Source of the DNA: a virus
Virus record (IMG/VR): IMGVR_UViG_3300039043_000005
Span: 1-20,063 of that record
Reading direction: 5' to 3' (one strand)
Length of the DNA: 20,063 bases
The position numbers and the translations under genes are program-made. The notes under the pieces are model-generated. The model was not told the DNA's origin and made no database searches. It worked only from the letters and a program-made list of their open reading frames with translations. This document shows, piece after piece, positions 1 to 15,926 of the stretch. Each line of letters starts with the position of its first letter. Position 1 is the stretch's first letter.

Positions 1-1598
1 TTGGTGGTGTTTCCAGCAGTGTCAAACTTTGCAAAATCTATATCTGATGATGATAATGAAAGTTCAGTTCTTAGAATATCTTCAATTATGTATATTGGGT
101 TTTCAATTAAATCATTTTCATTAAAACCATTATTTCTTGAATCAGCATCGATAAATGCACCATATTTTCTACCACGACCACAAACATATACAAATTCATA
201 TTCTACTGGATAATTTATTGTTTTTGTTCTTGTAAGTGTTATTTCACGATTTAATAACTCTGAAGATGGAATGTTTATTTTTCCTCGTATAGCTTCAGCA
301 ACTGTTGTTTCATAATATTCAATTTCATTATATGGTTCAATACCATCAATTTTTAATTCAACTACAAAACCAATCTCTTTAATTTCAACTGTTATCTGGC
401 TTGTCTGAGCTGAAAGTTTTATTTCTAATTGACCTTCAAAGTCAAATGAACTTTTTTGATCAGTAGTTGTAGTTACAACAGATTCTAATTCAGCATTATT
501 TCCTGTAGTAGCAAGGGCATGAGAAGTTGCACCAATTTGTAAAAAATCAAATACACTATCATTGCCAGAAATTGTACCTAATTTTGCAATTGCTTTAGTG
601 CTTATACATTCTCCAATTTTAGGAACTTTAGGAATACCCAAAAAAATACTTCTTGTGTTTGCTGTTGAACCGTCTCCAGCATTAGCAACCAATGTGCCTG
701 ATGTAGAAAAACTTCCGTCAACCATATTTGCAACATTAGTTTGACTTCCAGACCCTGAAGTAGTAAAGCTTGTTGTTGTAAGGGGTATATAAATTTTACA
801 AGTATTATCTGCAAATCCTACAGATGGGTTGCCAGAAATTGAAGTTGAACCAGTAATATTAGCATACTTGTTATTTTTATAATAATATATATTTTCTGCA
901 TCTAAGGTATGAATAGCTTGATTATCTACTTTGGCAAAAGTTTTCAATTCAGAAACATTAAATTTATTTGTTATGATTGCTGGAAATGCACTTTTATAAA
1001 ATGGCTTCATACGATCAAAATGAGTGGTTGGAATTGTACCTACATCACCAGTGTAAAAGTCACCATATGCCATTGGTATAGGTTTATTCCTGTTTGATAA
1101 TGGAATATCATCACCGTTGCCAAGAGTAGATGTTGGTAACTTTTGATGAACTGTTGAACTTTTATCCAACAATGTCAATTTTAAAGAGTCATAATCATAA
1201 TTTATATCACCAGATATTATCCCTGTTCCAATCATTCTTGTTGAAGTATCAAAAGTGCTTGTTTGATTTGTATTTAAAAATAATTCCCATTTTCTATTAC
1301 CAAAATTATTAGTTGCGAAAAGGTCTGAAAACCTTCCTCCTTGTATTGATCTTTCTGTATTTATAATTCTTATTGACATATTACTAGATGATGTATTGAA
1401 GTCAAAAAAATTACAAGATTGTGATAGGTTTCCCCAACTTGATATAAGACCAAAATACATATCATCCCCATCTGGTCTGTCAATATCTGATAAACCTATA
1501 AAATTAGATTCATCATTATAATATAATTTGATTACCCAAAATGCTGTTGTATTTGCATTTTTAAGACTGTTACTAAGGTCTGTATCAAAACTAAGCAT
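1..1598 (-). CDS. Distal tail / tail-tip structural protein (3' end outside window)
   Basis: An open minus-strand frame starts at the ATG at 1598-1596 and runs off the window at base 1, giving about 532 residues without a stop. The start overlaps the last 8 bases of the tape measure gene, with a weak TAGGTG ribosome site. The protein opens MLSFDTDLSNSLKNANTTAF. It contains a Ser/Thr/Gly-rich beta segment around residues 270-330. A conserved-looking stretch follows near residues 470-510, with GRGRKYGAFIDAD and then NPIYIIEDILRTEL, the style of tail-tip or baseplate hub proteins encoded directly after tape measure genes in siphophages. The role is inferred mainly from position. No enzymatic motif was seen. 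A minor tail protein or receptor-contact protein are alternatives. Confidence 0.75.
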   Translation of the reverse strand, partial: MLSFDTDLSNSLKNANTTAFWVIKLYYNDESNFIGLSDIDRPDGDDMYFGLISSWGNLSQSCNFFDFNTSSSNMSIRIINTERSIQGGRFSDLFATNNFGNRKWELFLNTNQTSTFDTSTRMIGTGIISGDINYDYDSLKLTLLDKSSTVHQKLPTSTLGNGDDIPLSNRNKPIPMAYGDFYTGDVGTIPTTHFDRMKPFYKSAFPAIITNKFNVSELKTFAKVDNQAIHTLDAENIYYYKNNKYANITGSTSISGNPSVGFADNTCKIYIPLTTTSFTTSGSGSQTNVANMVDGSFSTSGTLVANAGDGSTANTRSIFLGIPKVPKIGECISTKAIAKLGTISGNDSVFDFLQIGATSHALATTGNNAELESVVTTTTDQKSSFDFEGQLEIKLSAQTSQITVEIKEIGFVVELKIDGIEPYNEIEYYETTVAEAIRGKINIPSSELLNREITLTRTKTINYPVEYEFVYVCGRGRKYGAFIDADSRNNGFNENDLIENPIYIIEDILRTELSLSSSDIDFAKFDTAGNTT

Positions 1599-3393
1599 TT
1601 AACGTAGCACCTAAAGAGGTAGCTTTATTGATTGCTGGTATAAGTTCATTGTTTACATAAGACTCATCAACCACGCCACCTGAAATGTTTACAGTGAGAC
1701 CCATATTACTTGCAAGGTTTTCTTGCTGTGCTTGATTTAAAATAACCTCACCTGGTGTAAGCATGGCTGGAACTGTATCTTGATTTCCTGATCCTTGTAC
1801 TATACCACCTTCAGCAAATTTAGGAACTAAACTGTCAAATAATTTTGTAGCAGATGCCGCCAATGCCGCCCCAGTTACTAAGCCTAAAAGACCTTTTCCA
1901 CCTATTTCTTTGGCTAGTATATCAGCCATCATTTGTGCAAATCTTGCTTGTATAACTTTTCTAACTGCTCCTAAAATACTATCAGAACTTTGCCCTGTTG
2001 CTATTGCTTGTTTTATAGCACTTTCTTCAACCTTGTCACCAGTTTTTTCAGCAGATTTACCAGTTGCATCTAAACTTTTGGTCACAACCTCACCTGATTC
2101 TTTTGATAACACTGCAACTGTTTTAAAGTAATCACCCCATATTGCTTTAGTCCTTTCTGTAAAATCTGATAAAGTCTGAACTTGATTTTCACCTCCAAAA
2201 AATTGTGCAATATCTGTTTCTGCTAATTGTGATGATATAGCATCAACATCTATAAAATCAGACATTTCTAATTTTTCTATGCCAAGTTTCTCACCTAAAA
2301 ATGAATCTGCAAAAATATTAAATTGTTCTTTAATAATATTGAACATACCAATAAAAATATTTTGAACTTTTGCAGAAACTACTTGTGCAAATATCACCAC
2401 TGGTTCAAATAAAAATGATGCAATATTCTTTATACCTTCTACTAAATTAGTAAATATGTTTCTAGCAATAGGAATTATTTTACCAAGTGCAAATTGAAAA
2501 AGTTCAGGCACAGCATCAAAATTAATTCTTAGTTGCTCTCTTATAGCAGTTAGAAGTGCAGTTAGATTGTTTTTAATGTTTTCAGCAGTAGCACTAAAAT
2601 CAATGGTAGCAAGAAAGTTTACTGCACTTGATACATCCCTTGAAAAACTTGATAAAATATCTAATGCTGAATTAAATGCTGGTGTTAGTGCAGTTCCTAA
2701 TGTACCAGCTAAATTTGTTGCAGATGACCTTAAAATATCTATTCTTTGTGATGTTGTAAGCTGTTCTTCTCCCAACCCTTCAACAAGTAATTTTGCTTGT
2801 CGCATTGTTTCATTGTTAAATGCTTGTTTTTTTTCTTGATCAGTTAATTGTTTAGTTGATTTGCCAAGTGATTTAGCAAACCTTTCATTTGCCTCATTAG
2901 TATCAACCATAATACCAAGATTGTCAAGCATCAACTTTGATTGCCTACCCATACCAGTAACTAATGATTCAACACCAAAGGCAGTGTCTTTTCCAAGTGC
3001 TGAACCAAGCCTTTGTGCCACATCAAACATTTCTGACATCTGGTCATTGTTTTCAAATATACCAAGCAACATAGCATTATTTGCTTGAGTCATTAATTCA
3101 ATATTATCTATTGTACCATCAGTTGCATCTTGAAGTTTTCTTAAAGTATCTTCTGATCCTCCTATCCCTTGAGATAGATTATCAAAACCAGATTTAACAG
3201 CTTGTAATTGACTTGATACAGCAATGGTTGTTTTTACACCTTCAATGATACCTTTGGCGGCAAAGAAAGTTGCTCCAGCTTTTAATACACTTTTAGTGAT
3301 ACCTTTAACACCGCTATCAATAGCACCTAAACCACTTTGTGTACCCCTTACACCTTTTAATCCTAATTTTAATATAAGGTTTTTAACTGCCAT
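1591..3393 (-). CDS. Tape measure protein
   Basis: This 600-residue protein should set tail length and thread through the tail tube; at about 0.15 nm per residue it would predict a tail near 90 nm. The N-terminus (residues 1-60) is basic with a Gly/Ala-rich hydrophobic stretch. The middle is alpha-helical and includes a GTALTPAFNSALDIL segment and long amphipathic helices. A hydrophobic GLLGLVTGAALAASATKLF segment lies near residue 500. The C-terminal region near 525-560 carries the DTVPAMLTPGEVILN motif typical of phage tape measure proteins. The start ATG at 3393 has an AAGGA site and lies 11 bases inside the upstream chaperone frame. Its place directly after the chaperone pair is canonical. 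It is short for the family but not unusually so. Confidence 0.93.
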   Translation of the reverse strand: MAVKNLILKLGLKGVRGTQSGLGAIDSGVKGITKSVLKAGATFFAAKGIIEGVKTTIAVSSQLQAVKSGFDNLSQGIGGSEDTLRKLQDATDGTIDNIELMTQANNAMLLGIFENNDQMSEMFDVAQRLGSALGKDTAFGVESLVTGMGRQSKLMLDNLGIMVDTNEANERFAKSLGKSTKQLTDQEKKQAFNNETMRQAKLLVEGLGEEQLTTSQRIDILRSSATNLAGTLGTALTPAFNSALDILSSFSRDVSSAVNFLATIDFSATAENIKNNLTALLTAIREQLRINFDAVPELFQFALGKIIPIARNIFTNLVEGIKNIASFLFEPVVIFAQVVSAKVQNIFIGMFNIIKEQFNIFADSFLGEKLGIEKLEMSDFIDVDAISSQLAETDIAQFFGGENQVQTLSDFTERTKAIWGDYFKTVAVLSKESGEVVTKSLDATGKSAEKTGDKVEESAIKQAIATGQSSDSILGAVRKVIQARFAQMMADILAKEIGGKGLLGLVTGAALAASATKLFDSLVPKFAEGGIVQGSGNQDTVPAMLTPGEVILNQAQQENLASNMGLTVNISGGVVDESYVNNELIPAINKATSLGATLNA

Positions 3394-3781
3394 TCTTTTT
3401 CCTTTCGTGGTTAGATATTTTTTGTATTTCGTTTTCTATCACAGTAAAACAATCCATCATCCAAGCATCCATTGAATCAAGGTCTTTTGAAATAGGAACA
3501 TTAAATTTAGTTACAGAAAAATAGTCAGTGATCATGTGCCAACACCAATCACTTATTACAATAGAGGGATTACAAAAAAAAGGTAATTGATAAAACATAC
3601 TTTGCCCTACATCAAACCCTTTTTCAGTTGATTCATTAATGATTCTGTAAACTTCATCTATAATGTCCTGTTTATTTTCAAACCTAACTCTCTCAAACAA
3701 TGTTGGCGATTGGGCATCATAGGGTAGTTCAAACCTATTTTCAGGAACTCCATAATTAGAGAACCATACCGCAGTCCTCAA
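3383..3781 (-). CDS. Tail assembly chaperone, downstream (T) frame, expressed by -1 frameshift
   Basis: This is the 132-residue frame after the first chaperone gene. It has no ATG near its beginning: the first possible initiation codon is a TTG at 3781 with no Shine-Dalgarno sequence, and the first methionine is about residue 62. The frame is open upstream through a GGGAAAC heptamer in the preceding gene. It is therefore most likely translated only as the C-terminal half of a fusion, as in lambda gpG-T. A slip at the heptamer would join residues 1-87 of the upstream protein to P-Y-W-R and then this frame, about 223 residues in all. By analogy the T domain would bind tail tube subunits while the tape measure is coated. 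Sequence alone does not identify the family; position and the slippery site do. Confidence 0.82.
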   Translation of the reverse strand: MRTAVWFSNYGVPENRFELPYDAQSPTLFERVRFENKQDIIDEVYRIINESTEKGFDVGQSMFYQLPFFCNPSIVISDWCWHMITDYFSVTKFNVPISKDLDSMDAWMMDCFTVIENEIQKISNHERKKNGS

Positions 3782-4053
3782 TCGCCAGTAAGGTTTCCCA
3801 AATCTAATCCCATATAAGCACCAATGATTGCTGTAAGCACTTCATCTTCTTGCACTGCTGAAAGATTACCTAATGCTTCATCAGCTTTTTTTTCATTATC
3901 AAAAGCCAGTAAAGTAAATTCATCACCAAGTTCATGAAGTTCAGTAATATTTTCAGAAGTAAAAACTTTCTTTACTTTCTTATAATACTTCCTTCTTTCT
4001 TTCCTAGTTATATCCTTTACTTCAAATTCACCATGTGGTGTATCAACAACCAT
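3778..4053 (-). CDS. Tail assembly chaperone, upstream (G-like) protein
   Basis: This 91-residue protein is encoded between the major tail protein and the tape measure protein, the usual place of the gpG-type chaperone that coats the tape measure during tail assembly. It starts at an ATG preceded by a strong GGGAGG site. It has a basic helix (RKERRKYYKKVKK, about residues 17-29) followed by an acidic helical C-terminal part. A slippery heptamer, G GGA AAC, lies at codons 86-87, twelve bases before the TGA stop, and would divert a fraction of ribosomes into the next frame. Assignment rests on size, location and frameshift signal rather than on a clear sequence signature. Confidence 0.8.
   Translation of the reverse strand: MVVDTPHGEFEVKDITRKERRKYYKKVKKVFTSENITELHELGDEFTLLAFDNEKKADEALGNLSAVQEDEVLTAIIGAYMGLDLGNLTGD
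3793..3799 (-). promoter_or_regulatory. Programmed -1 ribosomal frameshift slippery site GGGAAAC
   Basis: On the minus strand the codons read TTG GGA AAC CTT, so the heptamer G GGA AAC fits the X XXY YYZ rule exactly in the zero frame of the upstream chaperone gene. A slip to GGG AAA re-pairs both tRNAs and continues as CCT TAC TGG CGA TTG AGG into the downstream frame. The zero-frame stop follows 12 bases after the site. Lambda uses the closely related GGGAAAG in the same place. I did not find a convincing downstream stimulatory hairpin by eye. Confidence 0.82.
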
Positions 4054-4071
4054 AATTACCTCCCAATTAGA

Positions 4072-5154
4072 TTACATTGCTGTTAATGCAGTATTTTCAA
4101 ATGTTTCTAGTTTAAATGCTTCATTGCTTCCATTCTGTACACATTCAAATTCAAGCGTGTGAAATATACCATTTTCAGAAATATCTTGACCAGGATCACC
4201 AGTATATTGTACTTCTGCTGTTATTTCCATTTCACCTGAAGCATTTGGTGAACTATCTCCACAAATTAAATTTAATGTCATTGTGTCACCATCTAAGAAG
4301 TCTTGAATCACATTATTATCTGCACCATAGTCAAATTCATCATCTAACTTAATAGTAATAGAACCAGTCACCACATATTCAGGAAAAGCATATAATTCAG
4401 CATTGCCATTTGTATCAGCACCAACTCTATTAACACCATTTGAGATATTAAAAGAAAATGCTTTCATGATAAAGCTTCTATTATCTTGCCCATCAACATC
4501 TAATGTTCTTGTATCAAAGTCCATTACATTAAAATAGGTAGTTTGAGGATCAACCCAAGTTCCATCAAATGTTTGTTCTAAAACTGTTGATGTGCTTACA
4601 GGATTGCTGAATCCACTAAAGTAATTACCACTAATAGAAACCAATCCATTATTTGCTCCAACATCTCCAGCAATAGCTAAATCACTTACAACAACACCAC
4701 ATAACTTTATACCCTCACCAGCGGCTGGATAGTAAGCTAAGTTCACACTGTGAGGTATTGCATCACCTCCTATTGCTTCACCTATTGAAGCTGGGTTGCT
4801 TGTTCCATCAATTTCCATTTCATGCAAAATAGAGCCACTTTGTCCATTTTCTTGACCAACCAACATAGCGTGTTGAACTAATGTTTTTGGTGTTGCTATC
4901 ATATCAAAAGGCATAGTAACTGTACCGCCTCTTGTATTTACTATAGTATCACTTGCATTTTTGACAAGACCCCTACCACTTAATAATCTTGATTCTCTTA
5001 AAATATTAAATGTTGGTTTACTTGCTTGTACCACTGGTTGTGTAATGTATGCTGTTCCATCATTACCTGAACTATCTAATCCTACTCCAAAAGTTGTCTC
5101 TGCCTTTAAGCCATATTTGACATTACTAATTGGAAGCACTCGTGTATCAGCCAT
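4072..5154 (-). CDS. Major tail (tube) protein
   Basis: This 360-residue, beta-rich, methionine-poor and acidic protein is the probable tail tube subunit. It opens with MADTRVLPISNVKYGLKAET and contains a TRGGTVTMPFDMIATPKTL segment around residues 74-92, the pattern of tube proteins that begin with a reference to a construct or control state and then beta strands. It sits between the small connector genes and the chaperone pair, which is the standard place for this gene. The start is at a TAATG junction with the upstream gene and has a strong AAGGAGG site. At 360 residues it is longer than lambda gpV, leaving room for an extra domain on the tube surface. No catalytic motif is visible. Confidence 0.82.
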   Translation of the reverse strand: MADTRVLPISNVKYGLKAETTFGVGLDSSGNDGTAYITQPVVQASKPTFNILRESRLLSGRGLVKNASDTIVNTRGGTVTMPFDMIATPKTLVQHAMLVGQENGQSGSILHEMEIDGTSNPASIGEAIGGDAIPHSVNLAYYPAAGEGIKLCGVVVSDLAIAGDVGANNGLVSISGNYFSGFSNPVSTSTVLEQTFDGTWVDPQTTYFNVMDFDTRTLDVDGQDNRSFIMKAFSFNISNGVNRVGADTNGNAELYAFPEYVVTGSITIKLDDEFDYGADNNVIQDFLDGDTMTLNLICGDSSPNASGEMEITAEVQYTGDPGQDISENGIFHTLEFECVQNGSNEAFKLETFENTALTAM

Positions 5155-15029: not shown

Positions 15030-15926
15030 TTAATCTACGTTTCTGATTTTGATACCTTTCTTGTTATCAGTGTCGTCTATTCTTTTGACTCCGTAGAGCA
15101 AATCTGCTACTACCTTGGTGCCTAGTGCGTCTATAGAGTATTCTGACTGAACTCTAACTTCTTGCTGTGCCGCAAATGCACATGCTGTTTTGTGAAAGAT
15201 AACTCCTGAAATGGTGTTTGAATCACCACCGCTTGATACAGTATTAGACATATATACATCCATACCGTAAAGTGATCCTACCATTCCTGACCTTAATCCT
15301 CTGTTACCTTCACCAACTGCATCATTTCTAATAAAGAACTGTGCTATACCAGCAGAAGGATTAAGAATGTCTGCAAATAACTTTGGGTTAACAACCATAG
15401 CAACATCCCCATCCATGTAAGGGATACTGTTATCACCTAGTGTTGCCAAAGCTTCTTCAAACTTTGCCGCTGTTAACGTATCATCTGCAGATAAGTTTAA
15501 ACTTAATTCAAGATTACTTAACTCAGAATAAATATCTGAATCAACTTGTCTTGCAAGCGCTTCACCCATCATTCTTGAATATCTTTCAACCATATCAGCA
15601 TTTGACTGAATTTCAAGCACATCTTCAAACAACTTTGCTACATACTTATGCTTATTAACAGTAAGTTGTGTCTCTGTTGTTGCAGTTGCATCATAACTTA
15701 CGTCAGATCCTGCAGATTTATCAGAAGCACTTATTAAACTAATTTCTGGAATATGTAGAACATCACCGAAACCAGCGCCTGAAAATACTGCAGAGTAATC
15801 ATCAATCAATCCTCTAAAAACAGTATTTCTATCAAAGTATTTATAGATTCCTTCACCCCAGATTTCTGGAATAAAGTGACTATCAGTAGTGGCTGTTGTA
15901 GCACTACCTTGATACATTTTTGCCAT
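15030..15926 (-). CDS. Major capsid protein
   Basis: This 298-residue protein directly follows the scaffold gene, has an AAGG ribosome site and is followed by a hairpin, the standard setting for the most abundant head protein. Features fit an HK97-fold coat protein. An N-terminal segment has FIPEIWGEGIYKYFDRNTVF. An elongated beta region follows, with SYDATATTETQLTVNKHKYV. A spine helix is seen at about residues 103-135 (MVERYSRMMGEALARQVDSDIYSEL). A C-terminal beta-rich part has VAMVVNPKLFADIL and ends DNKKGIKIRNVD. No long N-terminal delta domain is visible, consistent with the separate scaffold. The exact family was not checked by profile. Confidence 0.9.
   Translation of the reverse strand: MAKMYQGSATTATTDSHFIPEIWGEGIYKYFDRNTVFRGLIDDYSAVFSGAGFGDVLHIPEISLISASDKSAGSDVSYDATATTETQLTVNKHKYVAKLFEDVLEIQSNADMVERYSRMMGEALARQVDSDIYSELSNLELSLNLSADDTLTAAKFEEALATLGDNSIPYMDGDVAMVVNPKLFADILNPSAGIAQFFIRNDAVGEGNRGLRSGMVGSLYGMDVYMSNTVSSGGDSNTISGVIFHKTACAFAAQQEVRVQSEYSIDALGTKVVADLLYGVKRIDDTDNKKGIKIRNVD

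Follow-up and report, generated by a model that had tools for sequence, protein, structure and literature searches.

A probable programmed −1 frameshift between two tail-chaperone-like genes of an uncultured phage, with a covarying long-range mRNA helix beyond the slip site

Introduction

How does a phage express two overlapping reading frames when the second has no ATG near its head? The question is raised by IMG/VR record IMGVR_UViG_3300039043_000005, which we analysed whole, as a single window of 20,063 bases with a G+C content of 33.7%. The initial annotation of this DNA proposed that a slippery heptamer joins two tail chaperone frames, in what it took to be a small phage; the record is a 20-kb viral fragment, and contigs of its relatives reach about 35 kb. 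Frameshifting at tail chaperone genes is very widespread, and the stimulators reported there are, in the literature that we found, predictions from single genomes. The relatives of this locus comprise dozens of diverged sequences with at least six types of slip site and a covarying helix, so that the trade-off between heptamer and stimulator becomes directly measurable.

Gene neighbourhood

The upstream reading frame (3778-4053, minus strand, as are all the features of the locus) encodes a G-like protein of 91 amino acids in the zero frame and ends with a TGA at 3780-3778. It is preceded by a Shine–Dalgarno sequence, GGGAGGT (4058-4064), with a duplex energy of -11.5 kcal/mol. Directly upstream lies a gene for a protein resembling a major tail or tail-tube protein (4072-5154), with a weak Phage_tube_2 match below the Pfam cutoff and a PHROG label of minor tail protein. 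Directly downstream is the gene for the tail tape measure protein (1591-3393; phrog_3779, E 3.6e-11), whose start overlaps the end of the second, T-like frame by 11 nt. The order is tail protein, G, T and tape measure, i.e. two overlapping frames between a tail protein, itself weakly assigned, and a tape measure. Elsewhere in the window, the major capsid protein (15030-15926) is distantly similar to its counterparts in Pelagibacter phages (HTVC111P, 27% identity) and in many Mycobacterium phages.

It is this gene order, not homology, that suggests that the G-like and T-like proteins are tail assembly chaperones. Sequence and fold searches of Pfam, PHROGs and the PDB with both proteins returned no significant match to a known tail chaperone. 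Single members of the two protein families gave weak matches to Phage_TAC_19 (E 0.012) and Phage_TAC_7 (E 0.045), and five members gave weak matches to phrog_9001, ‘tail assembly chaperone’ (best E 0.014). The AlphaFold models have a mean pLDDT of 89 for G and 90.6 for T; neither domain matched a PDB fold, and the sole strong fold match for the T model was an unnamed viral protein, A0A516MHX0 (E 2e-8, TM 0.90 by target). Among 50,697 phage records there was no relative of G, of T or of the major tail protein, and for this last protein genome contigs yielded none either. Tail chaperone ORFs are known to have little sequence in common between phages (PMC5009743).

The slip site

Read on the minus strand, the upstream frame ends ...GGA TTA GAT TTG GGA AAC CTT ACT GGC GAT TGA. 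The heptamer G_GGA_AAC (3799-3793) thus spans codons 86-87, with the TGA 12 nt further on, exactly the register that the initial annotation had described. After a slip of one base, the P-site codon would change from GGA to GGG and the A-site codon from AAC to AAA. The open stretch of the −1 frame extends from 3841 down to a stop at 3383, in agreement with the earlier description of a 132-residue continuation. Entered by a slip (3383-3799) it would comprise 138 codons from the GGG, plus the stop; counted from a TTG at 3781 there are 132. The predicted fusion reads ...LDLGN-PYWRLRT...

Heptamers of the form XXXYYYZ that are in frame and followed by a −1 run of more than 25 codons occur just twice among all the genes of the window. 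The other is T_TTA_AAA at 6983-6977 (minus strand), 18 nt from the stop of a phosphoesterase-like gene and with a −1 run of 77 codons. We rejected it as a recoding site, as it is broken in many relatives (TTTAAC, CCTAAA, TTTGAC) and the next gene has a start codon of its own.

Conservation in relatives

Using the T-like and G-like ORFs and the tail protein as queries, we obtained 64 distinct loci, or 53 once near-copies were removed, and the G-like ORF is present in all 53. The −1 register is retained in 64 of 64, and 52 of the 53 carry a tandem slippery heptamer. An alignment of relatives had been put forward as a check on the heptamer and its phase; the phase and the slipperiness of the site turned out to be conserved. 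In 43 of the 53 the site lies exactly 12 nt from the stop, as GGGAAAC (29 cases), CCCTTTA (7), AAAAAAA (3), GGGAAAA (2), CCCAAAT (1) or CCCTTCT (1). The remaining 10, which are more distant, have an A-run (including the AAAAAAG type) 0-15 nt from the stop, and held-out loci fetched later add AAAAAAC to the slip types. On a tree of the two proteins, with the overlap region left out, the heptamer type has changed at least seven times. Such turnover of type with slipperiness kept is what is expected under selection for slipping.

Could the heptamer be a chance occurrence? Throughout the GGGAAAC set glycine is encoded by GGA (29/29) and asparagine by AAC (29/29), codons that make up 28% of the glycine and 18% of the asparagine codons in these genes. 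The preceding codon encodes six different residues, with G as its third base in every case. Given the fixed GGA and AAC usage and the conservation in relatives, we rejected chance. The mechanism that the initial annotation had in mind, a conserved device joining two frames, is supported by the heptamer and −1 register kept in relatives, and from these comparisons a programmed −1 frameshift at G_GGA_AAC is very likely.

One subclade (L056, L133 and L135) goes against the frameshift reading: its non-canonical C_CCU_UCU would not allow the A-site tRNA to re-pair well. These loci, which also have a long helix, are candidates for slipping by the P-site tRNA only.

The fusion might be made by slippage of the polymerase during transcription instead of by the ribosome. 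This is plausible in distant relatives whose A-runs are about nine bases long. The distant loci L074, L075, L077-L083, L025 and L069 have an A-run slip site at the G end and no helix, and transcriptional slippage is possible there. In the window, GGGAAAC has no long homopolymer, which makes polymerase slippage unlikely, and the mRNA helix described below points to the ribosome. We consider that transcriptional slippage has almost no chance of being the explanation here.

The start codon of the T frame

If the T frame were a separate gene, it would have to begin at a TTG that overlaps the TGA, the only start-like codon near its head, and be translated from this UUGA by coupling or reinitiation. 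The overlap is present in 37 of the 43 relatives with the 12-nt layout, and one of them (L072) even has AUGA; the other five have CTG, and relatives with A-runs often have no start nearby. It follows from the five CTG codons that TTG is not a kept start, and hence that a gene call for T that begins there would be wrong. This agrees with the suspicion in the initial annotation that a TTG start would be a mis-annotation; under the frameshift reading such calls would be corrected.

Three further observations go against a separate gene. The Shine–Dalgarno potential at the TTG is weak, at -4.2 kcal/mol in the window (versus -11.5 at the upstream ORF) and at a mean of -3.7 kcal/mol in the relatives (versus -9.3 at the upstream start). 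Secondly, the −1 frame is conserved before the supposed start. The residues W-R-L, just ahead of and at the TTG, are kept through exchanges of CGA with CGG, which change the upstream protein, and of TTG with CTG; in the T model the residues ahead of the TTG (residue 7) are part of the first helix, which starts at residue 4. Finally, with independent initiation there would be no cause for retaining a slippery heptamer. Translation of T as a gene of its own is therefore very improbable.

A long-range helix downstream of the heptamer

The initial annotation was incomplete in one respect, as it missed a covarying RNA helix downstream of the slip site. In the fold of the window TGGCGATTG (3787-3779) pairs with CAATCGCCA (3712-3704), both on the minus strand, closing a 66-nt loop (3713-3778) that was included in a conservation scan; the 3′ arm covers the Q-S-P codons of the −1 frame. 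The 5′ arm begins 5 nt past the heptamer, and in all relatives of the 12-nt layout there are 6 nt between heptamer and a core of 10 bp. Across 40 distinct sequences 98.8% of the cells of this core are paired, versus 27-43% in slid registers. Pairs outside the core are 64% formed and are accordingly not claimed as general.

Three of the core pairs are altered on both sides: C-G is swapped for G-C in five sequences, for example, and U-G or U-A gives way to C-G or A-U. None of 500 shuffles scored as high, a count that overstates independence because the sequences are related. G.U pairs account for 48 of 420 helix cells; these would be A.C mismatches on the opposite strand, which places the structure in the sense mRNA. 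In a scan of 270 nt in 37 relatives of equal length this is the sole helix kept with appreciable variation; two further registers reuse one of its arms together with a conserved TGGTT. The 270 nt, loop included, contained neither a further conserved helix nor a partner for a pseudoknot, and a comparison with Rfam gave no match at E values up to 1.

The helix is found in 41 of 41 minimum-energy folds, with a mean z of -2.6 relative to synonymous redraws. It is absent from ten relatives with A-runs, for which the mean z is -0.7. All eight of the held-out loci have the helix, with at least 10 contiguous pairs, and the longest version (16 pairs) is that of L056 in the C_CCU_UCU subclade.

The frameshift could be real and the helix a functionless by-product of coding constraint, since its arms encode conserved residues (W-R-L in one, A-Q/R-S-P in the other). 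When the amino acids are held fixed, about 10% of synonymous redraws still give at least eight contiguous pairs, from which we conclude that coding constraint aids the helix and does not explain it: at least eight pairs are formed in 39 of 39 tested sequences. The choice of codons is also telling. The serine codon of the 3′ arm is TCG in 37 of these 39, and TCC in exactly the two that have G in place of C in the 5′ arm; the arginine codon is CGG or CGA, never the common AGA. Two distant held-out loci with A_AAA_AAC (L138 and L139) keep 12 pairs using other bases. Furthermore, the 5′ arm stays at a constant distance from the heptamer while the separation of the arms varies, with the 3′ serine codon at an offset of 90, 93, 102 or 117. 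A helix owed to coding alone is thus unlikely, although of the alternatives considered here it is the one to which we give the most weight.

The helix might also be some other RNA element, such as an autoregulatory protein-binding site or a transcription signal, that lies beside the slip site by chance. Its function is, after all, deduced from position. That position is the one typical of frameshift stimulators, 5-8 nt past the slip site (PMC4066793), and the helix lies within a coding region and is absent from the distant lineages with long A-runs. We regard an unrelated element as quite improbable, and infer from its position that the helix is a frameshift stimulator.

Discussion

We are highly confident that this locus is a case of the G/G-T type of tail assembly chaperone frameshift found in long-tailed phages, probably stimulated by a downstream helix. 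What the sequences show is a kept −1 register, a heptamer that is conserved as a slip site and turns over in type, a TTG that some relatives have lost and a helix that covaries. In the mechanism that we propose, most ribosomes would terminate at the UGA and release a G-like chaperone of 91 residues. The helix would hold the ribosome with GGA in the P site and AAC in the A site, and a minority of ribosomes, at a rate that the helix probably sets, would slip back one base and pass the stop in the −1 frame. The product would be a G-T fusion in which the terminal LTGD of the chaperone is exchanged for the T domain (LGN-PYWRLRT...). If the chaperones function as those of lambda do (PMC5009743), the tape measure would be coated by the G part, and recruitment of the tail tube protein would fall to the T part.

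In Escherichia coli, slipping is poor when re-pairing at the second codon is non-cognate, as for AAC to AAA (PMC4066793). A codon that is weak on E. coli ribosomes fits the need for a stimulator, and it would mean that most of the helix-bearing lineages have weak heptamers. We somewhat favour the idea that this uncultured phage group sets its chaperone ratio with an interchangeable signal of two parts, a heptamer whose type varies and, at a fixed spacing from it, a long-range helix around a loop of more than 60 nt, while lineages with A-runs do without the helix, i.e. that slip-site strength is traded against the stimulator. The evidence for the trade-off itself is suggestive only, as the helix also accompanies a cognate second codon in the GGGAAAA and in three AAAAAAA lineages.

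Comparison with known systems

The closest likeness is to lambda (Xu, Hendrix and Duda 2004, as given in PMC5009743), which shares the gene order V-G-T-H, the −1 direction, a GGGAAA-type heptamer near the stop of G, a T frame entered by the slip and an overlap with the start of the tape measure gene. The heptamer GGGAAAG that the initial annotation cited for lambda is indeed that of the lambda sequence, and its second codon is AAG instead of AAC; the proteins of the two phages are not recognisably related. The covarying long-range helix belongs to the phage of the window, in a comparison whose lambda side rests on one sequence.

The initial annotation further presented the AAC variant, and its short distance from the stop, as a clear new case. 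Neither feature is novel: the lambda site lies 15 nt from the stop of G, an ordinary distance, and GGGAAAC has been reported at the tail chaperone sites of Burkholderia phage KL1, Caulobacter phage Colossus and haloarchaeal virus HCTV-1. For Colossus (PMC3556154) and HCTV-1 (PMC5009743) the available portions of the reports do not mention a stimulator. In the gp18/gp19 pair of KL1 the heptamer directly precedes the stop codon of the first gene (PMC3483164), and for this phage and phage AH2 downstream structure was predicted from single genomes in a window of 35 nt. The KL1 prediction is a local mfold stem-loop within that window, whereas the helix described here is comparative and extends over ~85 nt, which illustrates that downstream structures can reach well past such short windows.

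In corynephage phi16 (gp14A; PMC5506516) a tail-assembly −1 frameshift is likewise accompanied by a structure predicted downstream. This case differs in its slip site (GGGGGAA), in having an internal Shine–Dalgarno sequence and in the structure, an H-type pseudoknot predicted from a single genome. We found no comparative, covariation-based case of a stimulator at a tail chaperone site in the literature, of which subscription papers were thinly covered. Outside the phage tail genes, the bacterial stem-loop stimulators of E. coli dnaX and of the IS3-family elements also begin 5-8 nt past the slip site (PMC4066793); in contrast to these, the helix described here lies within a phage tail gene and encloses a loop that exceeds 60 nt and is larger still in some relatives. 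The frameshift type and the GGGAAAC heptamer are known, and what appears new, within the literature covered, is a comparatively supported long-range helix at a tail chaperone slip site.
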